From positions 1 through 37,401 of the forward strand of contig JAFPVJ010000011.1 in the NCBI GenBank assembly GCA_017400135.1: a stretch of DNA of 37,401 nucleotides, in the 5' to 3' direction. Positions 216-37,401 of this stretch are shown one piece after another. The DNA is from Bacteroidales bacterium (GTDB taxonomy: Bacteria > Bacteroidota > Bacteroidia > Bacteroidales > UBA932). A program made the translations under genes and the position numbers. Below the pieces are notes generated by a model. It did not search any database. It was not told the DNA's origin and worked only from the letters and a program-made list of their open reading frames with translations. Each line of letters begins with the position of its first letter. Within the stretch, counting starts at the first letter, position 1.

Positions 216-1076
216 ATGAAAGCATATCTCTTCCCCGGACAAGGGTCCCAATTCCCCGGCATGGCACGCGAGCTGTATGACGGCTGCCCGGAAGCCAAGT
301 CCTTGATGGACAAGGCGGATGAGATCCTGGGCTTCCGTCTGACCGAAATCATGTTCGAGGGAAGCGATGAGGATCTGAGGGCGACGCGCGTCACCCAGCC
401 CGCCGTCTTCCTGCATTCCGTCGCCGCCTTCACGGCGCTGGAAACGCCCGATCCGGAAGCAGTCTTCGCCGGGCATTCGCTGGGCGAATTCTCCGCCCTC
501 GCCGCAGCGGGCGTGCTAGACTTCGAAGACGCCCTGCGCCTGGTCGCCCTGCGCGCTTCCGAGATGCAGAAATGCTGCGAGAGCTCCCCCGGCACGATGG
601 CGGCCATCATCGGACTGGAGGGCGATGCCGTCGAGCGCCTCTGCGCCGAAACGGAAGGTCTCGTCATCCCTGCCAACTACAACAGCGACGCCCAGATCGT
701 CATCTCCGGAGAGCAGGATGCCGTCCTCGCTGCCTGCGTCAAGGCGAAGGAAGCCGGTGCCAAGCGCGCCCTTCCCCTCCCCGTCAGCGGTGCATTCCAC
801 TCCCCCCTTATGGAGCCGGCGCGGAAAGCCCTAGCCGAAGCCATCGCCGCCACCCGTTTCCGGGAGCCGAAGAATCCCGTCTACCAGAACGTGACCGCCC
901 TGCCGGAAATCGACCCGGAGCGCATCCAAGCCAACCTCCTCGCCCAACTGACCTCTCCCGTCCGCTGGACCCAGACCGTCCGGCAGATGCGCCGCGACGG
1001 CGTGGACGAGTTCATCGAACTCGGCCCTGGCACCGTCCTGACCGGTCTGCTCAAGCGGATCGCAGAAGAACAATAA
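216..1076 (+). CDS. fabD: Malonyl-CoA:ACP transacylase (FabD)
   Basis: This enzyme transfers the malonyl group from malonyl-CoA to acyl carrier protein, supplying the extender unit for cytoplasmic type II fatty acid synthesis. The 286-residue product begins MKAYLFPGQGSQ, the family's usual start. It has the nucleophile motif GHSLGE with Ser88, the catalytic His195 in AFHSPLM, and the C-terminal ELGPGTVLTGL block. The length is normal for a stand-alone FabD. An in-frame TTG at 195 would add seven residues, but homologues start at MKAYLFPGQG and TATTTTTG lies just upstream, so I chose the ATG at 216. The next gene starts 22 bases after the stop on the same strand, so they may be co-transcribed, although the pathways are unrelated. 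Confidence 0.96.
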   Translation: MKAYLFPGQGSQFPGMARELYDGCPEAKSLMDKADEILGFRLTEIMFEGSDEDLRATRVTQPAVFLHSVAAFTALETPDPEAVFAGHSLGEFSALAAAGVLDFEDALRLVALRASEMQKCCESSPGTMAAIIGLEGDAVERLCAETEGLVIPANYNSDAQIVISGEQDAVLAACVKAKEAGAKRALPLPVSGAFHSPLMEPARKALAEAIAATRFREPKNPVYQNVTALPEIDPERIQANLLAQLTSPVRWTQTVRQMRRDGVDEFIELGPGTVLTGLLKRIAEEQ

Positions 1077-1098
1077 CACCTTGATAAACCTACCTCAA

Positions 1099-2541
1099 AT
1101 GAGCACTGAAACCCATTACCTTGCAGTCGACCTCGGAGCCACCAGCGGCAGGACCATCCTCGCCACTTTCGACGGCAGCAAGGTCGGGATGCGCGAGCTG
1201 ACCCGCTTCAAGCACCCCATGGTCCCGATCGGAGGACACCTCTACTGGGACCTTCCCCATCTTTTCAATGAAATTCTCGAAGGCCTGAAGAAGGTCGCCG
1301 CCGAAGGAATCGAGATCCAGTCCGTAGGCATCGACACCTGGGGCGTCGACTTCGCCTTCTTCGGCAAGGACGGGCAGCCCATCGGCCTCCCCCACTGCTA
1401 CCGCGACGAGTATACGACCGGAGCGATGGACCGTTTCTTCGCCGACCGCATGCCTTCCAAGGAAGTCTATGCCAAGACCGGCATCCAGTTCATGGAGTTC
1501 AACTCCCTCTTCCAGCTGGACACCCAGCGCCGGGAAGGCAGCAGCGTCCTCGAGGCCGCCGACAAGATCCTCTTCATGCCGGATGCGCTGACCTACATGC
1601 TCACCGGCGAGGCGGTCTGCGAATACACCATCGCCTCCACCTCCCAGATCCTGAACCCCGTCACGGGCGACCTGGACGCCGATCTCCTCAAAACCCTGAA
1701 ACTGGACCGGGAGCGCTTCGGCCGTCTCGTCCAGCCCGGCGAAGTCGTCGGTACGCTGACCCCGCAGGTACAGAAGGCCACCGGTCTCGGCCCCGTCAAG
1801 GTCGTCGCCGTCGCGGGCCACGACACAGCTTCCGCCGTCGTCTCCGTCCCCGCCAAGGGCGCGCATTTCGCCTACCTCAGCTGCGGCACCTGGTCGCTGC
1901 TCGGCATCGAGTCCCCGAAGCCCATCATCAACGAGCAGAGCTTCCGGGAGAACTTCACCAACGAAGGCGGCATCGACGGGACCACACGTTTCCTCAAGAA
2001 CATCTGCGGCCTCTGGATCTTCGAGAAATGCCGCGAAGACTTCTACAAGGATCCCGTCCGCTTCCCCGGCGCCCCGCAGGGCATCAAGGAGCTGACCGCC
2101 AAGTGCCTGGAGTCCGACTATGACGGCATCATCTTCCCGGACGACGATCTTTTCGTCCACCCCGACTCGATGACTGCCGCCATCTGCGAATTCTGCCGCC
2201 GCACCGGCCAGAAGGCCCCCGAGACCGTCGCCGACTACCTGCGCTGCATCTACCGCAGCCTGGCGCTGCGCTACAAGGAAGTCATCGCCCTGCTCGCCGA
2301 AATGGGCGGGTTCCCGATCGAGAGCCTCAACGTCATCGGCGGCGGGTCCCAGAACCCCTACCTGATGCAGTTTGCGGCCGACGCCCTCGGCTTCCCTGTC
2401 ATCTGCGGCCCCACCGAAGGCACGGCCCTGGGCAACACCCTCGTGCAGCTGCGCGCCGCCGGCAAGGTCGGCGACCTCTGGCAAATGCGCGCGATCAGCG
2501 CCGCCTCCGTCGAATTGAAAACCTATTTCCCTCAAAAATAA
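1099..2541 (+). CDS. rhaB: Rhamnulokinase, FGGY carbohydrate kinase family
   Basis: This is an FGGY-family sugar kinase of 480 residues, the expected length. The phosphate-1 loop VDLGATSGR (residues 10-18) is the form typical of RhaB. GHDTASA places the catalytic-base Asp at about residue 242. A GGGSQN adenosine loop lies near residue 414. The inferred reaction is ATP-dependent phosphorylation of L-rhamnulose to L-rhamnulose-1-phosphate in the cytoplasm. No rhamnose isomerase, aldolase or permease gene lies nearby, so the substrate rests on sequence resemblance alone; another deoxyketose such as fuculose is possible. The ATG at 1099 is preferred over a TTG at 1081 because the Rossmann-like start follows directly. 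Confidence 0.85.
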   Translation: MSTETHYLAVDLGATSGRTILATFDGSKVGMRELTRFKHPMVPIGGHLYWDLPHLFNEILEGLKKVAAEGIEIQSVGIDTWGVDFAFFGKDGQPIGLPHCYRDEYTTGAMDRFFADRMPSKEVYAKTGIQFMEFNSLFQLDTQRREGSSVLEAADKILFMPDALTYMLTGEAVCEYTIASTSQILNPVTGDLDADLLKTLKLDRERFGRLVQPGEVVGTLTPQVQKATGLGPVKVVAVAGHDTASAVVSVPAKGAHFAYLSCGTWSLLGIESPKPIINEQSFRENFTNEGGIDGTTRFLKNICGLWIFEKCREDFYKDPVRFPGAPQGIKELTAKCLESDYDGIIFPDDDLFVHPDSMTAAICEFCRRTGQKAPETVADYLRCIYRSLALRYKEVIALLAEMGGFPIESLNVIGGGSQNPYLMQFAADALGFPVICGPTEGTALGNTLVQLRAAGKVGDLWQMRAISAASVELKTYFPQK

Positions 2542-2559
2542 CTACTAAACTATCCCGAT

Positions 2560-5500
2560 ATGGCAAAAGAAAAGAAATTCATCACCTGTGATGGAAACCA
2601 GGCTGCGTCCAACATCGCATACCTGTTCAGTGAGCACGCCGCTATTTACCCGATCACGCCCTCTTCCACGATGGCTGAAAACGTGGACGAATGGGCCGCG
2701 CACGGCAAGAAGAACCTTTGGGGCGAGACCGTGAAGGTTACTGAAATGCAGAGCGAGGCGGGTGCGGCCGGAGCGGTACACGGGTCGCTCCAGGCCGGCG
2801 CGCTCACGACGACCTTCACCGCTTCCCAGGGATTGCTCCTGATGATCCCCAACATGTACAAGATCGCCGGTGAGATGCTCCCGTCCGTTTTCCACGTCTC
2901 CGCCCGCGCGCTCGCTTCGCACGCGCTTTCCATCTTCGGAGACCACCAGGACGTGATGGCCTGCCGCCAGACCGGTTTCGCGATGCTCGCCTCCGGTTCC
3001 GTCCAGGAAGCCCAGGACATGGCCGCCGTCGCACACCTGGCCGCCATCAAGAGCAGCGTTCCGTTCCTCCACTTCTTCGACGGTTTCCGGACCTCCCACG
3101 AGATCCAGAAGATCGAGGCCTTCGACGAGGCCGACCTGAAGGGCCTGGTCAGCGAGAAATCCCTGCAGGCCTTCCGCCAGCGCGCCCTCAACCCCGAAAC
3201 GCCCGTCACCCGCGGCACCGCGCAGAACGGCGACGTCTATTTCCAGGCCGTCGAGTCGCGCAACAAGGTGTATGAAGCCGTCCCGGACATCGTCGCCCGC
3301 TACATGGGCGAAATCGGAGAGATCTCCGGCCGCCACTATCGTCCCTTCGAGTATTACGGTGCCAAGGATGCCGAGAACGTCATCGTCGCGATGGGCTCCG
3401 TCACCGAGACCATCAAGGAGACCATCGACTATCTGGCCGCCCAGGGCAAGAAGGCCGGTCTCGTGACCGTTCACCTCTACCGTCCGTTCTCCGAGAAGTA
3501 CCTCCTCAAGGTCCTCCCGAAGACCGTCAAGCGTATCGCGGTCCTCGATCGCACCAAGGAGCCCGGCGCTCCCGGCGAGCCCCTCTTCCTCGACATCAAG
3601 GCCGTATTCCAGGGCCGGGAGAACGCTCCGCTCGTCATCGGAGGCCGTTACGGACTGTCCTCCAAGGACACCACGCCCGCCCAGATCGTCGCCGTCTTCC
3701 ACAACCTCGAGCTGAAGTTCCCCAAGGCCGATTTCACCATCGGCATCATCGACGACGTGACCTTCAAGAGCCTGCCCGTCAAGGAGGAGATCTCCATCGT
3801 GAAGCCCGGCACCACCGAGTGCAAGTTCTACGGCCTCGGATCCGACGGCACCGTCGGCGCCAACAAGAACACGATCAAGATCATCGGTTCCCACACCAAC
3901 CTCTACAGCCAGGCCTATTTCGACTACGACTCCAAGAAGTCCGGCGGTTACACCTGCTCGCACCTGCGTTTCGGCAAGTCCCCGATCAAGGCCCCGTACC
4001 TGGTCGGAACGCCCGACTTCGTGGCCTGCCACGTACCTTCCTATCTGGAGAAATATGACGTCCTCAAGGGCATCAAGGAAGGCGGCAGCCTCCTGCTCAA
4101 TTCCCTCTGGGACGAGGAAGAGACCCTGAAGCACATCCCCGACCACGCCAAGAGCGTCATCGGCCGCAAGCACATCCGTCTCTTCATCATCAACGCGACC
4201 AAGATCGCCGCGGAAATCGGCCTCGGCGGCCGTACCAACACGATCCTGCAGTCCGCCTTCTTCCGCATCACGGGTATCATCCCCGTCGACGACGCGGTCA
4301 AGTACATGAAGGACGCCGCCCTCAAGAGCTATGGCAAGAAGGGTGAGAACGTCGTCAACATGAACTACGCGGCCATCGACCGCGGCGGCGAATTCACCGA
4401 GGTGAAGATCCCTGCCGAATGGGCCGAGATCACCGCCAAGTTCACCAATCCCAACGAGAACCGCCTCGCTCCTGCTTTCGTCAAGGAGATCGCCGACGTG
4501 GTGAACGCCCAGTGCGGCGACACCCTGCCCGTCAGCGCCTTTGTCCCCTGGGCGGACGGCACGATGCCCAACGGTACCGCCGCCTTCGAGAAGCGCGGCG
4601 TCGCCGTGACGGTCCCCGTCTGGGATGCCGAGAAGTGCATCCAGTGCAACACCTGCGCCTTCGTCTGCCCGCACGCCGCCATCCGCCCGTTCCTCCTGAC
4701 TGCGGACGAGGCCGCCGCGGCGCCCGCCGGCATGCCCGTCGCGGACGGCAAGGCCAACCTCAAGGAGTACAAGTACGCCCTCTCCGTGTCCGTCGCCGAC
4801 TGTACCGGTTGCGGCAACTGCGTGGACGTCTGCCTCTCCAAGGACAAGGCCCTCAAGATGGAGTCTTACCAGGAGCATGCCGCCGAGCAGGCCTGGTACG
4901 ACCACCTCAACGCGAAGGTCGGCTACCGCCAGCCCTTCGACCCGAAGTCCAACATGAAGAACGCCCAGTTCTCCCAGCCGCTCTTCGAGTTCTCCGGCGC
5001 CTGCGCAGGCTGCGGCGAGACCCCGTACATCAAGAACATCACCCAGCTCTTCGGCGACCGCATGATGATCGCCAACGCGACGGGCTGTTCCTCCATCTAC
5101 GGCGCCTCCTTCCCCGCCTCCCCGTACTGCACCAACGCCCAGGGCCATGGCCCGGCCTGGCAGAATTCCCTCTTCGAGGACTTCTGCGAATTCGGTCTCG
5201 GCATGCACCTCGGCTCCGAGCGCGTCCGTGACACGGTCGCAGCCCTGATGAAGAAGGGCCTCGAGTGCGAGAAGTGCAGCCCCGAGATGAAGGAGCTGTA
5301 CCAGAAGTGGCTCGACAACCGCAAGAGCTATGAGGTCACCCGCGAGGTCTGCGACAAGCTCGTCCCGATGATGGAGGCCTGCGGCTGCGACGTCAGCAAG
5401 AGCTTGCTGGCTCTCAAGCAGTACATCCCGGCCCGCAGCCAATGGATCTTCGGCGGCGACGGCGCCTCCTACGACATCGGCTACGGCGGCCTGGACCACG

Positions 5501-6087
5501 TCCTCGCTTCCGGCGAGAACGTCAACATCCTGGTCCTCGATACCGAGGTGTACTCCAACACCGGCGGCCAGTCCTCCAAGGCGACTCCGGTCGGCGCCAT
5601 CGCGAAGTTCGCGGCGTCCGGCAAGAAGATCCGCAAGAAGGATCTCGGCATGATGGCCATCAGCTACGGCTACGTCTATGTCGCGCAGGTCGCGATGGGC
5701 GCCAGCCCCGTGCAGTACATGAACGCCATCAAGGAGGCCGAAGCCTACGACGGACCGTCGCTGATCATCGCCTACGCGCCTTGTATCAACCACGGCCTGA
5801 AGGCCGGCATGGGCCTGAGCCAGAAGGAAGAGAAGCTGGCCGTCGAGTGCGGCTACTGGCATCTCTACCGCTACAACCCGGCCTTCGAAGGCACGGACAA
5901 GAACCCGTTCAGCCTCGACAGCAAGGAGCCCGACTGGAGCAAGTTCCAGGACTTCCTGAAAGGCGAGGTGCGCTTCGCGTCCCTGTACAAGCTCTTCCCG
6001 GAGTCGGCCGCCGAGCTGCTCCAGAAGACCGAGGAATTCGCCAAGGTCCGCCTGGGCACCTACAAGCGCCTGGCCGGCAAAGAGTAA
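2560..6087 (+). CDS. nifJ: Pyruvate:ferredoxin (flavodoxin) oxidoreductase, single-chain
   Basis: This enzyme oxidatively decarboxylates pyruvate to acetyl-CoA and CO2 and reduces ferredoxin, a central step in anaerobic energy metabolism. The 1175-residue chain has the full fused domain order. First come the pyrimidine-binding and transketolase-like domains (YPITPSSTMAE near residue 30). A ferredoxin-like domain follows with two 4Fe-4S motifs, Cys693-696-699-703 and Cys748-751-754-758. The proximal-cluster and TPP-binding domain comes last, with CAGC at 815-818 and GGDGASYDIGYGG near 963. In the second cluster motif the proline that usually follows the fourth cysteine is leucine (VCLSK), a minor oddity. 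It starts 18 bases after the kinase stop. A ferredoxin gene lies 3.4 kb downstream and could be its partner. Confidence 0.97.
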   Translation: MAKEKKFITCDGNQAASNIAYLFSEHAAIYPITPSSTMAENVDEWAAHGKKNLWGETVKVTEMQSEAGAAGAVHGSLQAGALTTTFTASQGLLLMIPNMYKIAGEMLPSVFHVSARALASHALSIFGDHQDVMACRQTGFAMLASGSVQEAQDMAAVAHLAAIKSSVPFLHFFDGFRTSHEIQKIEAFDEADLKGLVSEKSLQAFRQRALNPETPVTRGTAQNGDVYFQAVESRNKVYEAVPDIVARYMGEIGEISGRHYRPFEYYGAKDAENVIVAMGSVTETIKETIDYLAAQGKKAGLVTVHLYRPFSEKYLLKVLPKTVKRIAVLDRTKEPGAPGEPLFLDIKAVFQGRENAPLVIGGRYGLSSKDTTPAQIVAVFHNLELKFPKADFTIGIIDDVTFKSLPVKEEISIVKPGTTECKFYGLGSDGTVGANKNTIKIIGSHTNLYSQAYFDYDSKKSGGYTCSHLRFGKSPIKAPYLVGTPDFVACHVPSYLEKYDVLKGIKEGGSLLLNSLWDEEETLKHIPDHAKSVIGRKHIRLFIINATKIAAEIGLGGRTNTILQSAFFRITGIIPVDDAVKYMKDAALKSYGKKGENVVNMNYAAIDRGGEFTEVKIPAEWAEITAKFTNPNENRLAPAFVKEIADVVNAQCGDTLPVSAFVPWADGTMPNGTAAFEKRGVAVTVPVWDAEKCIQCNTCAFVCPHAAIRPFLLTADEAAAAPAGMPVADGKANLKEYKYALSVSVADCTGCGNCVDVCLSKDKALKMESYQEHAAEQAWYDHLNAKVGYRQPFDPKSNMKNAQFSQPLFEFSGACAGCGETPYIKNITQLFGDRMMIANATGCSSIYGASFPASPYCTNAQGHGPAWQNSLFEDFCEFGLGMHLGSERVRDTVAALMKKGLECEKCSPEMKELYQKWLDNRKSYEVTREVCDKLVPMMEACGCDVSKSLLALKQYIPARSQWIFGGDGASYDIGYGGLDHVLASGENVNILVLDTEVYSNTGGQSSKATPVGAIAKFAASGKKIRKKDLGMMAISYGYVYVAQVAMGASPVQYMNAIKEAEAYDGPSLIIAYAPCINHGLKAGMGLSQKEEKLAVECGYWHLYRYNPAFEGTDKNPFSLDSKEPDWSKFQDFLKGEVRFASLYKLFPESAAELLQKTEEFAKVRLGTYKRLAGKE

Positions 6088-6093
6088 TCTGCG

Positions 6094-7926
6094 ATGAACG
6101 TATGGTTAAAAAAAGCAGCGCTGCTGGTGGCGGCGCTGCTTTTGGTTTCCGGACTGAAGGCCCAGCAGGCCCCGGATATCATCGTGCGCCTCTATCCCGA
6201 GGGACAGGGTGTGGACAAGGGCATCGTGGAGAACGGCATCGCCGTCACGCAGGGGCCCGGCTGCGCCAATGAGTTGAAGGTCCCCCAGAGCTGGGACGGC
6301 AACCTGCTGCGGCGCGTGTCCGACCCCTGGATGCACATCTATCTTCCCGAGCACAACACCACGGGCCAGATGGTCGTCATCTGCCCCGGCGGCGCATACG
6401 CCCTGCTGTCCACGGTGACGGAAGGGGAACTGGCCGCCCGCTGGCTCAATGAGCGCGGTATCGCAGCCTGCGTCCTCTGGTACCGCATGCCCAACAAGCA
6501 CGATATCGTGCCCCTGACCGATGTGCAGAATGCCTTCCGCTACTGCCGCCATCACGCCGCCGAATGGGGCGTGGAGCAGGTCGGCGTGATGGGATTCTCC
6601 GCGGGCGGGCACCTCGCCGCGAGCGCGTCGACGCTCTTTACCGACGAAATCACGCGCCCGGACTTCTCCATTCTCTTCTATCCCGTCATCACGATGGAGG
6701 AAGGACTGACGCACGAAGGCACGATGTACAACCTCACCGGCAAGGACCCGGCGCTGCGGGAGCGTTATTCCCTGGAAAACAGGGTGACGTCCGACACGCC
6801 GCCCACAATCCTGCTGCTGAGTTCCAACGATGACGCCGTTCCACCGGAGAACAGCCTGCGTTACCTGCGCGCGCTAAAGGAGCACGGCGTCCCGGCCCAG
6901 ATCCACAGTTTCCCCACCGGGGGGCACGGCTGGGGCTTCGCCGCGAAGGCTTACACCGGCAAGAAAGACCCCATCGGGGATGAGGCCCGCGCGACGGCCG
7001 ATGCAGCGCTGGAGACCTTCCTGCGCTCCTGCCAGACGGTCCCGGAAACGGTCCTGCTCTACCCTGAAGGCCAGAACGTGGACAAGGGCATTGTCGAGGA
7101 TGGCGTCGCCGTCACCCTCGGCCCCGGGGAAAGCACCGAAGCCGAGGGACCTGAATTCGTCAAGGAGACAGGGAATGTCGGCAATGTCAGCGACAGCGCC
7201 CGGATGATCATCTATCTCCCCAAAAAGCCCAACGGCCAGATGGTCGTCATCTGTCCGGGGGGCGGCTATACCAACCTCGCGATGCGCCACGAGGGCTACT
7301 GGGTGGCCGAATGGCTGAACGAACGCGGGATTGCGGCCTGTATCCTGGTTTACCGGATGCCGCGGGGCACGCACCACCAGGCGCCCATCATCGACGTGCA
7401 GAACGCCTTCCGCTACTGCCGGCACCATGCCTCGGAGTGGGGCGTACGGCAGATCGGTGTGATGGGATTCTCCGCCGGCGGCCATCTGGCGGCCTGCGCC
7501 TCGACCCTCTACGTCGACGAAGTGACGCGCCCGGACTTCTCGATTCTCATCTATCCTGTCATCACCTTCGACGAGAAGGTCAAGAAAAAAGGCACTCTCG
7601 AGCAGATGACCGAAGGCGGACGCCGGAAGGACCTGATGGAATACTATTCGTTGGAAAACCGCGTCACGGAGCAGACGCCTCCCGCCATCCTGCTGTTGAG
7701 CGAGGACGACAAGGGCGTCATCCCCGAGCACAGCTGGCGCTATTTCGAGCAGCTGCGGCAGCACGGCGTCCCCGGGGAACTGCACATTCTCCCCTACGGC
7801 GGCCACGGCTGGGGCTGGAAAACCCCCGACAAGAGCGGCAAGCCCGATCCCCTGCACGACGGCGTACGGGAAGTCTTCTTCCACTGCGTGGACAACTTCC
7901 TGGAGCGACAGATCAAAGACAACTAA
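6094..7926 (+). CDS. Exported protein with two tandem alpha/beta-hydrolase (esterase) domains
   Basis: The 610-residue product has a signal peptide (MNVWLKKAALLVAALLLVSG, cut near AQ). Two similar domains follow, about residues 26-315 and 325-605. Each begins with a LYPEGQ.VDKGIVE segment and has an oxyanion-type VVICPGG loop, a nucleophile elbow GFSAGGHLAA (Ser169 and Ser460), an aspartate region (SSNDDAVPPE; SEDDKGVIPE) and a terminal histidine in GGHGWG. Both catalytic sites therefore look intact. The family resembles secreted acetyl-xylan and other carbohydrate esterases. The true substrate is not evident. The following sialidase-fold gene begins 13 bases later and suggests de-acylation of glycans. 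It starts 6 bases after nifJ, but the functions differ. An internal gene duplication is the simplest origin. Confidence 0.88.
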   Translation: MNVWLKKAALLVAALLLVSGLKAQQAPDIIVRLYPEGQGVDKGIVENGIAVTQGPGCANELKVPQSWDGNLLRRVSDPWMHIYLPEHNTTGQMVVICPGGAYALLSTVTEGELAARWLNERGIAACVLWYRMPNKHDIVPLTDVQNAFRYCRHHAAEWGVEQVGVMGFSAGGHLAASASTLFTDEITRPDFSILFYPVITMEEGLTHEGTMYNLTGKDPALRERYSLENRVTSDTPPTILLLSSNDDAVPPENSLRYLRALKEHGVPAQIHSFPTGGHGWGFAAKAYTGKKDPIGDEARATADAALETFLRSCQTVPETVLLYPEGQNVDKGIVEDGVAVTLGPGESTEAEGPEFVKETGNVGNVSDSARMIIYLPKKPNGQMVVICPGGGYTNLAMRHEGYWVAEWLNERGIAACILVYRMPRGTHHQAPIIDVQNAFRYCRHHASEWGVRQIGVMGFSAGGHLAACASTLYVDEVTRPDFSILIYPVITFDEKVKKKGTLEQMTEGGRRKDLMEYYSLENRVTEQTPPAILLLSEDDKGVIPEHSWRYFEQLRQHGVPGELHILPYGGHGWGWKTPDKSGKPDPLHDGVREVFFHCVDNFLERQIKDN

Positions 7927-7939
7927 CTATCGTCGATTC

Positions 7940-9061
7940 ATGTCAATACGAGCCTTTTTCTCGGGAATCCTCGTCCTTGCGCTGCCCCTGACGGCGGCGG
8001 CACAGGGCAACCGGTGCAATCTGCCCTGGACAGACATTTCCGGGCAGAAAAACCGTCAGGTCGTCGTCGCGGCCGGAACGCCCGACAACTATAACGGACA
8101 TCCCACGACCGTCCTGATGGAGGACGGGCGGACGATGGTCTGCGCCTGGTCGGAGGGCCACGGCGGGAAGGCGGCCTATATCGGATTCAGCTATGACGGA
8201 GGCCTGACCTGGCACAATTCGGCCGCGCCGAAGGAATGGGAGGGCCTCGTCAACTGCCCCAGCCTCTACCGTCTGACGGACAAACAGGGCAAGGAACGCC
8301 TGTTCTGTTTCGCCTGCATCCAGAGCGACCTCCCCTACCGCAACATGGGCTACTCCGTCAGCGAGGACGGGGGCAGGACCTGGAGCTCCGTGAAAGACCT
8401 GGGCAAGCCCTGCATCATGGCTTTTACCAGCATCATTCCCCTGAAAAACGGCGACCTGCTCGGTATGTACCACCGGGGAAATTCGGACCAGGACCGCAAT
8501 CCGCTCAAACTCTGGCAGGCCGTGTCCCACGACGGAGGCCTGAGCTGGGACGAATCCGTCCTGGTCGGGGAAATGGAGGAACGTTCGCCCTGCGAGCCCT
8601 GTGTCTTCCGCTCCCCCGACGGGCAGACGCTCATCTGCCTGGCGCGGGAGAACCGGCGCAGGGGCTGTTCGCTCTATATGGGATCCAAGGATGAGGGCAA
8701 GACTTGGACCACGCTGCGCGAGGCGCCCTGGGGCATTACCGGAGACCGCCACACGCTCCGCTACCTTCCGGACGGCCGCATCCTCTGCGTCTTCCGCGAC
8801 ATGGCGCCGAACAGCCCCACGAAGGGCCATTTCGTGGCCTGGGTGGGGACATACCTGGATCTTACCAACGGACTGTCAGGGCAGTACCGGGTCAAACTGC
8901 TGCACAGCTACGCCGGCTGGGACTGCGGCTATCCGGGCCTCGAAATGCTGCCGGACGGCACGCTCGTGGCTACGACCTATATCAAATACCACCCGGGGAC
9001 CGCGAAACATTCCGTGGTCTCCGTACGGTTCAAGATAGAGGAATTGGACGGCCTGTTTTAA
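7940..9061 (+). CDS. Secreted sialidase-fold (BNR/Asp-box) protein
   Basis: The 373-residue product has a signal peptide (MSIRAFFSGILVLALPLTAAAQ). Four Asp-box motifs of the form S-x-D-x-G-x-T/S-W are visible: SYDGGLTW, SEDGGRTW, SHDGGLSW and SKDEGKTW. They mark a six-bladed propeller of the sialidase superfamily. A C-terminal block GYPGLEMLPDGTLVATTY resembles that of Bacteroidales exo-alpha-sialidase-like proteins. The canonical FRIP motif near the N terminus is absent (the region reads YNGHPTTVL), so the glycosidase type is uncertain; sialidase is the nearest name, not a proven activity. The stop shares TTAA (9058-9061) with the convergent small regulator gene. Confidence 0.8.
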   Translation: MSIRAFFSGILVLALPLTAAAQGNRCNLPWTDISGQKNRQVVVAAGTPDNYNGHPTTVLMEDGRTMVCAWSEGHGGKAAYIGFSYDGGLTWHNSAAPKEWEGLVNCPSLYRLTDKQGKERLFCFACIQSDLPYRNMGYSVSEDGGRTWSSVKDLGKPCIMAFTSIIPLKNGDLLGMYHRGNSDQDRNPLKLWQAVSHDGGLSWDESVLVGEMEERSPCEPCVFRSPDGQTLICLARENRRRGCSLYMGSKDEGKTWTTLREAPWGITGDRHTLRYLPDGRILCVFRDMAPNSPTKGHFVAWVGTYLDLTNGLSGQYRVKLLHSYAGWDCGYPGLEMLPDGTLVATTYIKYHPGTAKHSVVSVRFKIEELDGLF

Positions 9062-35416: not shown

Positions 35417-35638
35417 ATGTATTGGACACTCGAACTTGCCAGCAGCCTGGACGACGCTCCGTGGCCGGCAACCAAAGAAGAATTGATAGACTATGCCAAC
35501 CGTTCCGGCGCTCCGGAAGAAGTCATCGAGAACCTCCAGGAGCTCGAGGAAGACAACGAGATCTACGAGAGCATCGAGGACATCTGGCCCGACTACCCTT
35601 CCAAGGACGACTTTTTCTGGAACGAGGAAGAATATTAA
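35417..35638 (+). CDS. DUF2795 family small protein
   Basis: This 73-residue cytoplasmic protein starts MYWTLELASSLDDAPWPATK and ends FFWNEEEY. It matches the very conserved Bacteroidetes DUF2795 form (ELIDYANRSGAPEEVIENLQ, EDIWPDYPSKDDF). Its function is unknown. The upstream in-frame extension of 26 codons is not conserved-looking and overlaps the promoter. Base composition is host-like, unlike everything downstream. Its last 16 coding bases recur at 37032-37047, suggesting that the gene's 3' end is an integration site. Confidence 0.9.
   Translation: MYWTLELASSLDDAPWPATKEELIDYANRSGAPEEVIENLQELEEDNEIYESIEDIWPDYPSKDDFFWNEEEY
35621..35636 (+). repeat. Direct repeat copy 1 (att-like), inside the 3' end of the DUF2795 gene
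   Basis: AACGAGGAAGAATATT, encoding the final NEEEY and the first base of TAA. An identical 16-mer lies at 37032-37047, 1,411 bases downstream. Confidence 0.85.
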
Positions 35639-35679
35639 GAAATTTCTGTTTGTAATCGCTTGATTATCAATAGATTATG

Positions 35680-35709
35680 AAAAAGCCAGGGATAGTACCT
35701 GGCTTTTTT
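35680..35709 (+). terminator. Rho-independent terminator after the DUF2795 gene
   Basis: AAAAAGCCAGG, loop GATAGTA, CCTGGCTTTTTT: an 11-bp stem with a T tract. It begins 59 bases after the start of the 16-base repeat. A diverged counterpart stands at the same relative place after the second repeat copy. Confidence 0.88.
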
Positions 35710-35722
35710 ACTTCCCCAAAAC

Positions 35723-35773
35723 ATAGCCCAAAATGCCTATTTTCACCCCCTCACTACCCCTGGGGCTATCCCA
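35723..35773. repeat. Cassette-boundary repeat, copy 1
   Basis: Right half ACTACCCCTGGGGCTATCCC (35753-35772) matches the boundary repeats at 36310 and 36948. A left arm ATAGCCC (35723-35729) is complementary to GGGCTAT (35763-35769), so the site can fold. It lies upstream of the barstar-like gene. Confidence 0.65.
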
Positions 35774-35840
35774 AATCTTTCATTTTCATCCTAAAAAGGT
35801 AATAGTTCGTTGAAAAGAGGAGGAATAGTAAATATATGGT

Positions 35841-35848
35841 TATCTTTG
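35841..35848 (+). promoter_or_regulatory. Predicted -7 box of the barstar-like gene
   Basis: TATCTTTG, 26 bases before the ATG at 35875. The upstream GAGGAATAGTAAA (35820-35832) is repeated before the third cassette gene (37150-37162). Confidence 0.5.
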
Positions 35849-35874
35849 TATGACTGTTATTCATTGACTCAATA

Positions 35875-36249
35875 ATGAATTGTAAAACTATTCAGATTGA
35901 TTGTAAAGGTTTCAAAGAAAAAGACCTTCATTTTGTATTCAAGGAAAAGCTGGGATTCCCAGATTTCTATGGAATGAATTGGGATGCTTTGATAGATTGT
36001 TTATCTTACCTCCGTGAACCCGAGGCAGAGATGACAAAAGTATCCCTGGAAGAAGATGAGGTGCTTTTGATATACTGCAATGATTTGTCTAAAGCCAAGT
36101 TCAATTCAAATGACTTGGTTGATATTATTGAATGGGTGAATGCACGAGGACTTGCCTGGTTTAACAAACCATTTGTTACCTTGTGCCCAGTCGAGTCAAA
36201 CATCCTTTCTATTGAGAAGGCTCGTATTGAGAAACAACAATTCAAATAA
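35875..36249 (+). CDS. Barstar-like ribonuclease inhibitor (probable immunity protein)
   Basis: The 124-residue acidic protein contains the barstar-family core: a helix with KEKLGFPDFYGMNWDALIDC (residues 24-43), then a strand VLLIYCNDL and an amphipathic helix. In barstar the FYGxNxDALWDxL helix plugs the barnase active site. It should bind and neutralise a barnase-like RNase toxin. No RNase gene lies beside it, so it looks like an orphan immunity gene. The coding sequence is AT-rich (about 27 percent GC in one 60-base stretch I counted), far below the folE side, implying horizontal gain. A boundary repeat lies on each side. Confidence 0.82.
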   Translation: MNCKTIQIDCKGFKEKDLHFVFKEKLGFPDFYGMNWDALIDCLSYLREPEAEMTKVSLEEDEVLLIYCNDLSKAKFNSNDLVDIIEWVNARGLAWFNKPFVTLCPVESNILSIEKARIEKQQFK

Positions 36250-36253
36250 TAAC

Positions 36254-36330
36254 GGGGATAGTACAGTTGAGCTTTATTTGTCAGTTTGTGATACCTTAGC
36301 CTGCCTCAAACTTCCCCTGTGACTATCCCA
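36254..36330. repeat. Cassette-boundary repeat, copy 2
   Basis: It begins GGGGATAGT (36254-36262) and ends ACTATCCC (36322-36329), which are complementary, with ACTTCCCC inside. The right 31 bases (36298-36328) match 36936-36966 at 29 of 31 positions. It starts four bases after the barstar-like stop and ends 26 bases before the DUF4279 start. Confidence 0.85.
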
Positions 36331-36356
36331 AGTTTTTCTTTTCTTTTCTTTGTACT

Positions 36357-36881
36357 ATGACTACCACAAGAGTTTATATTGTCTTTTACTCTGGCAAACC
36401 GATGGATTTCCAAACCATCTCTGAATTATCAGGGGTGGAACCTTCACACATAGAGGTCAAAGGGGAACAGAGGATTGGACATACAGGCAAAGTGGTTAAA
36501 ACCCAAAACAAGGATGGCGAATGGGTTCCTTTGATAAATCAGCACAATTCTTTTGAGTATCAATTGCCTGCCTCACACGGCATATATGTAGAAAGACTGT
36601 TTAGCAAGCTGAGGAGAACCATCAAGAATTCCGAACAATTGGGTGAGTATTGTAAGGCACATCACATCAAGGTAATTGTTCGAGTTGTCATTCAAGGCAT
36701 TACTGACACATATTCTGTTCCTGTGCTTCACTTTGATGGAAAGTTCATTTCTTTTCTTGCCGACTTGAATAATGCAGATGTCGATTTTGATATCTACACA
36801 GAACCCTGGGGAAAGGATGACGATTCATACAAAAAACCGGCAATTGTCCTTCCATCCGGCGTAGAGCTTTACAAAATCTGA
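36357..36881 (+). CDS. DUF4279-domain protein (probable immunity protein)
   Basis: The 174-residue protein resembles DUF4279: an early strand VYIVFYSGKPMDFQTISELS, a GVEPSHIEVKGEQ stretch, W and SFEY positions, a middle helix pair (ERLFSKLRRTIKN), and the terminal DVDFDIY. DUF4279 members occur among polymorphic-toxin immunity proteins; the partner toxin here is unknown. Like its neighbour it is AT-rich and flanked by boundary repeats. A TTTCTTTG close before the ATG may be its promoter, giving almost no leader. Immunity role is inferred from family and context. Confidence 0.7.
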   Translation: MTTTRVYIVFYSGKPMDFQTISELSGVEPSHIEVKGEQRIGHTGKVVKTQNKDGEWVPLINQHNSFEYQLPASHGIYVERLFSKLRRTIKNSEQLGEYCKAHHIKVIVRVVIQGITDTYSVPVLHFDGKFISFLADLNNADVDFDIYTEPWGKDDDSYKKPAIVLPSGVELYKI

Positions 36882-36892
36882 GTCTACATTTT

Positions 36893-36968
36893 GGGGAAGT
36901 ATTCTTATTAAGATACTGTTATTTCAAGGCATCTCAGCCTGTCTCAGACTTCCCCTGTGACTATCCGG
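36893..36968. repeat. Cassette-boundary repeat, copy 3
   Basis: Left arm GGGGAAGT (36893-36900) is complementary to ACTTCCCC (36948-36955). The right 31 bases (36936-36966) repeat those of copy 2 with two mismatches and end in TGTGACTATCC. It begins 11 bases after the DUF4279 stop. Confidence 0.85.
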
Positions 36969-37025
36969 GTTTTTAAACACAAGTATAACTTGCTGATAAT
37001 AAGCAGTATACAACAATTGCACTAT

Positions 37026-37049
37026 ATGTTTAACGAGGAAGAATATTGA
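37026..37049 (+). pseudogene. Displaced 3' end of a DUF2795-type gene
   Basis: ATGTTTAACGAGGAAGAATATTGA reads M-F-N-E-E-E-Y-stop. The last five residues and 15 codon bases equal the end of the intact DUF2795 gene at 35417-35638, but the stop is TGA instead of TAA and the rest of the gene is absent. It is followed by a terminator, as in the intact copy. I interpret it as the original gene end pushed aside by insertion of the cassettes. Confidence 0.65.
37032..37047 (+). repeat. Direct repeat copy 2 (att-like)
   Basis: AACGAGGAAGAATATT, identical to 35621-35636. Together the two copies bracket the barstar-like and DUF4279 genes. Confidence 0.85.
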
Positions 37050-37080
37050 TTTTATAACATATTGAAAATCAATAAATTAC

Positions 37081-37113
37081 AAAACTGCCAAGGAATCATC
37101 CTTGGCAGTTTTT
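37081..37113 (+). terminator. Rho-independent terminator after the displaced gene end
   Basis: AAAACTGCCAAGG, loop of six bases, CCTTGGCAGTTTTT. It corresponds in position and flanking bases (ATCAATAxATTA before it) to the terminator at 35680-35709. Confidence 0.85.
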
Positions 37114-37125
37114 GGTTTTTAGCCC

Positions 37126-37140: not shown

Positions 37141-37184
37141 CTGAAAGAAGAGGAATAGTAAAGAATGATGTTGTAGAAAACCAT

Positions 37185-37213: not shown

Positions 37214-37401
37214 ATGAAATTGCTGGAAAGACTCTTCCATTCCAAGGCAACACCAGAGGAGACGGTGGTGCCGGATGAGTATATCAAGAAGTATCCTGAG
37301 CCTTCTGAAAAGGTACAGGAACTTTTGCAGAGGGTCCCAGATACTGGCAAGATGCTTTATCAGTATATCAGGCACACCAGCATTTCAAAAGAGTGGAAGT
37401 A
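37214..37401 (+). CDS. Unrecognised protein, 5' part only (window ends)
   Basis: Sixty-two codons are visible before the window stops, beginning MKLLERLFHSKATPEETVV. There is no signal peptide. The segment is charged and probably helical, with a KVQELLQRVPDTGKMLYQYI stretch. I do not recognise the family. By position, after a promoter and a partial boundary repeat, it is probably another cassette gene, perhaps a further immunity protein. The full length and function cannot be judged. Confidence 0.65.
   Translation, partial: MKLLERLFHSKATPEETVVPDEYIKKYPEPSEKVQELLQRVPDTGKMLYQYIRHTSISKEWK

Follow-up and report, generated by a model that had tools for sequence, protein, structure and literature searches.

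The window analysed here, a stretch of 37,401 nucleotides, is contig C8 of a 2.31-Mb Bacteroidales genome (88.6% complete), and near its right end a DUF2795 gene is followed by a row of three small gene cassettes, whose integration at the 3′ end of that gene is the subject of this work. The DUF2795 gene (35417..35638, plus strand) is a host gene coding for a protein of 73 amino acids (PF11387, E 7e-20), its 3′ end being the attachment site, and upstream of it lies a divergent GTP cyclohydrolase I gene (PF01227), a relative of which is present in many of the DUF2795 loci that we fetched. The last 21 bases of the gene, TGG AAC GAG GAA GAA TAT TAA (core copy 1, 35618..35638, plus strand), have a second copy (core copy 2, 37029..37049, plus strand), which ends cassette 1, starts cassette 2 and stands after the ATG of the miniature frame ATG TTT AAC GAG GAA GAA TAT TGA. 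Both were located by a core pattern and by a mismatch search, and as the initial annotation had noticed, the 16-mer AACGAGGAAGAATATT within them is repeated exactly (35621-35636 and 37032-37047) with a different stop codon, TAA in the first and TGA in the second; the stretch resembling ATCAATA/ATTA (TTGAWWATCAATA) and the strong terminator that it had described are likewise seen past both copies, as a hairpin with a run of T. When up to three mismatches are allowed, AACGAGGAAGAATATT has three matches in the window compared with a mean of 0.19 in shuffled sequence, and none of 100 shuffles reaches three.

The last 141 bases of C8 (window 37261-37401) are identical to C6:1-141, so the window ends at an assembly break inside the footprint. 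In the sequence read onward on contig C6 (L006) the core occurs twice more, bringing the core pattern to four occurrences in the genome (35618-35638, 37029-37049, L006:706-726, and L006:1703-1723), and behind the DUF2795 gene there are thus cassettes of 1411, 937, and 997 bases, at the end of each of which stands a copy of the gene's last 21 bases (F/W-N-E-E-E-Y-stop), the whole footprint measuring about 3.35 kb. These two further copies and the three units they delimit lead us to reject a single insert of about 1.4 kb, as first proposed. The last core is followed by a terminator-like stretch and then by a flavodoxin gene, and the G+C content rises from 0.40-0.42 over the first 2 kb of L006 to 0.61 at L006 2001-3000. 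The segment 37048-37113, previously taken for host flank, turns out to be the start of cassette 2, and the empty form of this very locus would join the DUF2795 gene to L006:1724 onward.

Sixty further DUF2795 loci were fetched, the room downstream of the gene being judged by contig position. In L308 and L309 a single core connects the DUF2795 gene with the right flank found past the last core of the occupied loci L047 and L051. L047 (G226) holds the DUF2795 gene and one cassette of 1560 bases; its left block (7467-8101) is 98.3% identical to L309 1-635 (635 bp), the right block resumes at L047 9641, equivalent to L309 615, and at the core (L309 617-637) 21 bases belong to both blocks. Along the right block the first 773 bases are 69.2% identical, about 680 bases are unaligned, and later blocks reach 86-89%. 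L051 (G179) matches at 1964-7585 the empty site L308 at 666-6283, with 94.4% identity over 5.6 kb starting 3 bases 5′ of the core; the contig starts inside the array without a DUF2795 gene, no DUF2795 match is listed for G179, and the last core is altered to W-N-E-E-E-L-stop. In the empty sites the gene stops with TAG; in L047 the occupied gene stops with TGA, and TAG is found at the last core of that locus. These alignments place the crossover within the core or close to it, at a resolution coarser than a single base, and the orthologous empty and occupied sites establish, at the level of sequence, insertion at the 3′ end of DUF2795 with the gene restored, which is how the initial annotation had read the repeat. 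The shortness of strings coding for NEEEY could suggest that the pairing of AACGAGGAAGAATATT is a chance coding match; this is refuted by the empty-site comparison and retains practically no probability, given also the shuffle control, the additional copies on C6 and the same pattern in relatives.

The comparison with empty sites that had been suggested at the outset therefore succeeded in relatives, whose orthologous sites carry a single core, but not for the flank of the window, as its own empty site (DUF2795 joined to L006:1724 onward) was not found in the material examined. The flavodoxin gene of the right flank adjoins DUF2795 in none of the DUF2795 loci fetched first except the window's own continuation, its matches in 64 of 300 genomes (E<=1e-60) have by eye no place in common with the DUF2795 matches, and a comparison of right flanks all against all matched mainly integrase-bearing elements and gave no empty site of an array.

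Similar arrays are present in relatives. A query of 136 bases around core 2, with at most two matches per genome scored, has matches in 40 of 300 genomes of the same genus, its own included: 25 of them include sequence well 5′ of the core, one (G278) extends to 28 bases upstream, and 14 comprise the core and up to 8 bases. In the 20 regions fetched around the best matches (L042-L061), the strict core pattern is found in 18 and is absent from L046 and L061. Inner core copies mostly have the cassette end element upstream and often a TGATTTGATAATCAA-like start downstream, and last copies are followed by other sequence. The end element is a conserved stretch of about 100 bases common to cassettes, with a mean column identity of 80%. 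An intact DUF2795 gene is included in 7 of the 20 regions, many arrays start at contig ends, and in many relatives a contig end is no more than a few hundred bases away from the DUF2795 gene, which is what assembly breaks caused by array repeats would produce. An end-element profile stopping 5′ of the core gave 48 matches after five loci repeating others were dropped, six of which end early; among the 42 examined, 39 have a core-like string (L057, L058, and L101 have none), and 30 of these 39 sites read F/W-N-E-E-E-Y-stop while 9 do not. Deviations from the reference in codons 2-6 fall 54 times on third positions and 7 times on first or second positions, a bias indicating that cassette cores behave as a regular gene end.

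Cargo open reading frames (ORFs) taken from 32 cassette ends form 26 blastp families, some of which are probably spurious short ORFs, and nine of the 26 are present in at least two genomes. All four cargo genes of the window's array have a relative in the array of another genome, and gene order differs, the DUF4279 gene standing before the barstar gene in G244 and after it in the window. DNA identity of the same cassette between genomes ranges from about 75 to 94%, and three pairs clearly exceed the identity of host DNA: G284-G202 cassettes are 93.8% identical over 1801 bp vs. 77.1% and 84.8% for host DNA (515 and 230 bp), G017-G226 cassettes 89.9% over 1439 bp vs. 70.4% (961 bp), and G000-G202 cassettes 85.8% over 850 bp vs. 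75.0% (977 bp), whereas several Bro-N and cassette 2 pairs, at 75-79%, are not above host identity. By these identities, cassettes have been exchanged between species. End elements of such length and similarity would be sufficient for homologous recombination, and copies might have moved solely by this route after one old insertion; this is very improbable, as it leaves unexplained the insertion at a gene end with only the core in common, the core-precise junctions, and the integrase-type ends beside cassette starts described below.

No tyrosine recombinase was found to accompany these arrays as far as they were searched. Between the first and last core of the 20 loci L042-L061, blastp with seed recombinases found no tyrosine recombinase (relaxases were not systematically searched in relatives), and the earlier observation that no integrase lies between the copies in the window is confirmed, all five PF00589 matches of its genome being on other contigs. 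In seven array genomes at least 93% complete, no PF00589 match adjoins the array (serine recombinases were not searched); G202 has one PF00589 match beside a DUF2795 gene, on a different contig from its array. Other DUF2795 sites in the genus, in contrast, are occupied by larger elements with an integrase directly past the gene (L098, L099, L103, L109), and the element of L099 carries the integrase, DUF3987, DUF6371, and a MobV relaxase. Named genomes were scanned with six such integrases, L174 and L191 being the records of two query elements. Among the best 80 of 117 confirmed loci, 72 have a DUF2795 gene whose end is at most 1.5 kb upstream, and where the core pattern matched, in 70 of those 72, the integrase starts 215-298 nt past the start of the core; the remaining eight are four with a core copy and no gene, two at a contig start, L183 with an assembly gap, and L239 with other sequence. 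The hosts include Bacteroides ilei, B. mediterraneensis, B. gallinarum, Barnesiella, Muribaculum, and Alistipes senegalensis, and phages gave no match to this integrase at E 1e-30. This integrase family targets the 3′ end of DUF2795 specifically.

Of 80 DUF2795 loci chosen by contig position, at least 14 have the integrase family within 2.5 kb, at least 13 a second core, and at least 23 either of the two, counts that are lower bounds since 57 of the loci have more than 4 kb downstream. At the order level the core pattern is found in 96 of 393 genomes, among them at least eight in which a single contig carries two cores, at a distance of 1.8-28 kb. L110 holds a 12-kb unit between cores at 875 and 12646 in reversed orientation, with two very large ORFs of 1043 and 1989 aa and no recombinase by blastp. 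In L133:1023-16572 one DUF2795 gene is followed by a tandem of two elements whose integrases belong to the same family, the second integrase ORF being the shorter one (351 aa). In G202, the genome of L055 and L073, a DUF2795-type integrase lies past DUF2795 on C15, the array on C4 has an integrase-type end as its left neighbour, and the two may be one tandem split by assembly.

A link between the cassettes and the integrase-bearing elements is provided by a motif 5′ of the core, the arm. An arm matrix was built from eight ends of other elements at such sites, five with an integrase (in L135 split over two ORFs) and three without, and it recognizes 29 of 31 cassette ends at p<=0.05 (200 dinucleotide shuffles each), all at -45/-46; the misses are L042:10815 and L137:1950. 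As read from the aligned ends, the cassette consensus holds the arm motif at a fixed place, about one helical turn farther out than in the training elements. A sequence-only profile of 24 cassette ends gave, under strict filters, partial matches in 5 of 294 order-level genomes, three of which (G590, G404, G411) fall on the arm and core of cores already noted, and in L098, L099, and L144:8427 the cassette profile can be aligned with both arm and core, leaving a gap of 11 bases. By eye, ends like those of integrase elements adjoin cassette starts in L055, L101, and L138, and L144 has an integrase-type start directly after a cassette end.

Taken together, we consider it probable that the locus is an array of three non-autonomous cassettes at the end of the DUF2795 gene, moved by the tyrosine integrase family specific to DUF2795. 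The integration itself is documented by the orthologous sites above, and the identity of the recombinase is what we infer. Each cassette has one or more cargo genes, a terminator near the start, and a conserved end element with the arm motif and the 21-base core. Recombination by a tyrosine integrase would take place between the core carried by a circular cassette and one located at the gene end or within an array, and DUF2795 may thereby gain a new stop codon with its protein unchanged. The cassettes are without a recombinase. The likeliest enzyme would be the DUF2795-specific tyrosine integrase family of mobilizable elements in Bacteroidales, which would act either in trans, from an element passing through, or once tandem accretion has taken place; on this model such an integrase would act on the cassettes, and cassette circles would form.

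Several observations weigh against this explanation. The arm starts at -34 in the training elements, and the cassette arm is about 11 nt, one helical turn, farther from the core, a shift that would also be compatible with a distinct, related integrase. Being homologous, the 31 cassette ends cannot be counted as so many independent tests, and the matrix's anchor word was picked by eye after both sets had been viewed. The DUF2795-type integrase is no commoner in array genomes (4 of 25: G202, G146, G228, G067) than in others (11 of 55; E<=1e-30; the 55 are at least 90% complete, the 25 of any completeness), it adjoins no examined array on one contig, and it has no match in the window's own genome, which is 88.6% complete. 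In many pairs the same cassette gene has an identity of only 75-82%, which does not exceed that of host DNA, and the G000-G045 contrast is weak (90% vs. 84% over 225 bp). A full end element was found in none of the 294 other genomes of the order-level search, and cassettes thus look genus-bound and the integrases order-wide; plasmids gave no match to cassette end DNA. No reads, circles, or excision junctions were seen. The lack of co-occurrence with arrays counts against a resident helper, while a helper that comes and goes would fit. The earlier suggestion of movement in trans accordingly stands in outline: it is favoured by no recombinase having been found in the arrays and by the DUF2795-specific integrase family elsewhere, and it lacks that co-occurrence.

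The offset of the cassette arm from that of known integrase elements could also point to another dedicated recombinase in the genus, encoded elsewhere or in unassembled parts of arrays, at which assemblies break. One candidate, related to L011 (C13 of the window's genome), is an integrase family that occurs in 14 of the 25 array genomes and in several of eight genomes whose recombinases were compared (29 of 32 loci recovered), but it is as common in others (35 of 55) and is without a match (E<=1e-30) in G096 and G297, two array genomes of 95% completeness or more; with the absence of adjoining PF00589 matches in the seven genomes above, we regard this alternative as unlikely. Still less credence goes to the use of the host XerC/XerD by the cassettes, in the manner of Xer-exploiting elements, with a dif-like site in the core region. 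XerD-like and XerC-like proteins were the two families found in all eight of these genomes, and G016 (98% complete, 8 contigs) has no other PF00589 match. Almost any genome can however be expected to have Xer, and finding it carries no information; G016 makes the weakest case for an array, having a cassette-type start but neither a full-length end element nor a match to the 136-base query; and the cassette ends have arm and core in common with elements of dedicated integrases at the same gene end.

The locus can be compared with known systems. Integron cassettes are small mobile units, usually of one gene and a recombination site, arranged head to tail at one platform. The cassettes described here are similarly small, usually of one gene, each with a site, and ordered at one platform, but here that platform is a protein gene's end, the genes do not all point the same way (the cassette 3 gene is on the minus strand), and by eye the cassettes appear to have their own promoters and terminators. 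No integron integrase is present at the locus, and the five recombinases of the genome score at best 153 bits against TIGR02249, whose cut-off is 265.

Cis-mobilizable elements (CIMEs) are described as decayed integrative and conjugative elements or integrative and mobilizable elements (IMEs), found at the 3′ ends of streptococcal tRNA-Lys, rpmG, and rpsI and at ssrA in Dehalococcoides, the classical ones of Streptococcus salivarius measuring 1.2-13 kb (PMC5704250, PMC7563491, PMC3146451; further background on CIMEs and IMEs in PMC6907783). On these descriptions, the cassettes resemble CIMEs in having attachment repeats derived from a gene 3′ end (cores at the cassette borders, with single-core empty sites in relatives), in that no integrase was found inside (20 loci by blastp, the window cargo by Pfam), and in having the same target as integrase-bearing elements. 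They differ in that units are mostly about 0.8-1.6 kb and of one gene, have a common end element, are arrayed, and are reshuffled between species, and in that the target is DUF2795 in Bacteroidales. Concerning an origin by decay, arm and core are shared with integrase-bearing elements, the cassettes have a further end element of their own, and no relics of an integrase were noticed; concerning mobilization in cis after accretion, what is seen is the adjacency of the two end types. The Bacteroidetes IME type is represented at the DUF2795 site by L099, with the same core and arm motif; unlike it, the window cassettes have neither integrase nor relaxase. They are best read as CIME-like units arrayed like integron cassettes.

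The rAID systems of Bacteroidales are rows of short low-GC genes, some coding for predicted immunity proteins, with conserved intergenic sequence (PMC12247911). Compared by description, the row described here shares these traits, but no recombinase was found at the locus, the genes are not all co-oriented, and the cargo is wider than immunity. The tyrosine recombinase upstream that characterizes rAID was seen neither at the window locus nor in the arrays of relatives; against a threshold of at least two co-directional genes below 41% GC, the four genes of the array have rounded values of 0.37, 0.41, 0.44, and 0.41, the fourth being on the other strand. Membership of integrons and of rAID systems was rejected on the recombinase feature.

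Titles and opening lines of abstracts gave no account of the DUF2795 3′ end as an integration site, which other literature may describe. The present results name a conserved protein gene as an attachment site across Bacteroidales, together with a matching integrase family, and may offer a testable route for the gain and loss of orphan immunity and defence genes. Tentatively, we extend this to a recombinase-free cassette platform in Bacteroidales, at which standardized small cassettes with immunity-like and other genes would be acquired at the 3′ end of DUF2795, stacked there, and exchanged by integrases borrowed from a community of mobilizable elements, an integron-like arrangement with an integrase supplied in trans and a protein-gene end as its platform. 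The mechanism of rAID biogenesis is called an area of active research in a preprint (PMC12247911), and the DUF2795 locus offers a mechanism that could be tested in rAID-related systems.

In the window, cassette 1 begins with a right arm-like motif GTAATCGCTTGATTATCAATAGATT 14 nt past the core (35652..35676; read from sequence, with similar starts in L060 and L101) and a terminator-like hairpin (35678..35711, plus strand; RNA fold of 35640-35712 at -28.0 kcal/mol, a value without shuffle control). Its first gene (35875..36249, plus strand) codes for a barstar-like predicted immunity protein (PF01337, E 3e-12) with a relative in the G244 array, and its second (36357..36881, plus strand) is a DUF4279 gene (PF14106, E 3.5e-9) with relatives in the G179 and G244 arrays. 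Between them lies a remnant of the cassette end element without arm and core (36250..36339, plus strand; profile R1 match at 36296-36339, positions 3-45; repeat D1), which likely marks a former cassette boundary. The full end element (36933..37048, plus strand; alignment A3) overlaps core 2 and scores 106.6 bits with R1, a model in which this copy is itself included; it contains the left arm motif TATAACTTGCTGATAATAAG (36984..37003, plus strand), 45 nt 5′ of core 2, with p 0.005 by the matrix trained on other elements. Cassette 2 starts with a right arm-like motif TATTGAAAATCAATAAATTAC (37060..37080; read from sequence, with similar starts in L043, L047, L050, L051, L052, L054, and L057) and a terminator-like hairpin (37081..37112, plus strand; inverted repeat I2; RNA fold of 37048-37120 at -24.9 kcal/mol, again without shuffle control). 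The 5′ part of its gene (37214..37401, plus strand; 207 aa when whole) runs on into C6 through the 141-base overlap and has relatives in the G045 and G202 arrays.

The cassette 2 gene, scanned in its C6 part, and the cassette 3 gene have no Pfam match; no integrase or relaxase was found by Pfam among the window cargo genes, and no PADLOC match among the window cargo. To judge by its family names, the window cargo may protect against toxins as immunity genes. Of 23 cargo proteins scanned, 8 could be assigned to a Pfam family with a score above its cut-off (barstar, DUF4279, Bro-N, DUF4299, KilA-N, AAA_14/DUF4143, TonB_C, and RelE) and 15 could not; these counts leave out a scanned protein of L139, which does not come from such a cassette. 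A five-kb unit between two cores in L101 (988-6049), in which no integrase was seen, carries FRG, DUF4238, PLD-like, and CAP12-type TIR genes, with strong PADLOC matches for FRG (PDC-S15) and TIR (PDC-S35) and a weak one for the PLD-like protein, and is likely a defence module at a DUF2795 site.

A core-like string AAAGARGAGGAATAGTAAA stands directly 5′ of TATCTTTG promoter-like boxes in the window (35814-35832 and 37144-37162), and at cassette borders of L046 and L055 a decayed core leads directly into the leader of the next gene; cassette promoters may arise from decayed cores.

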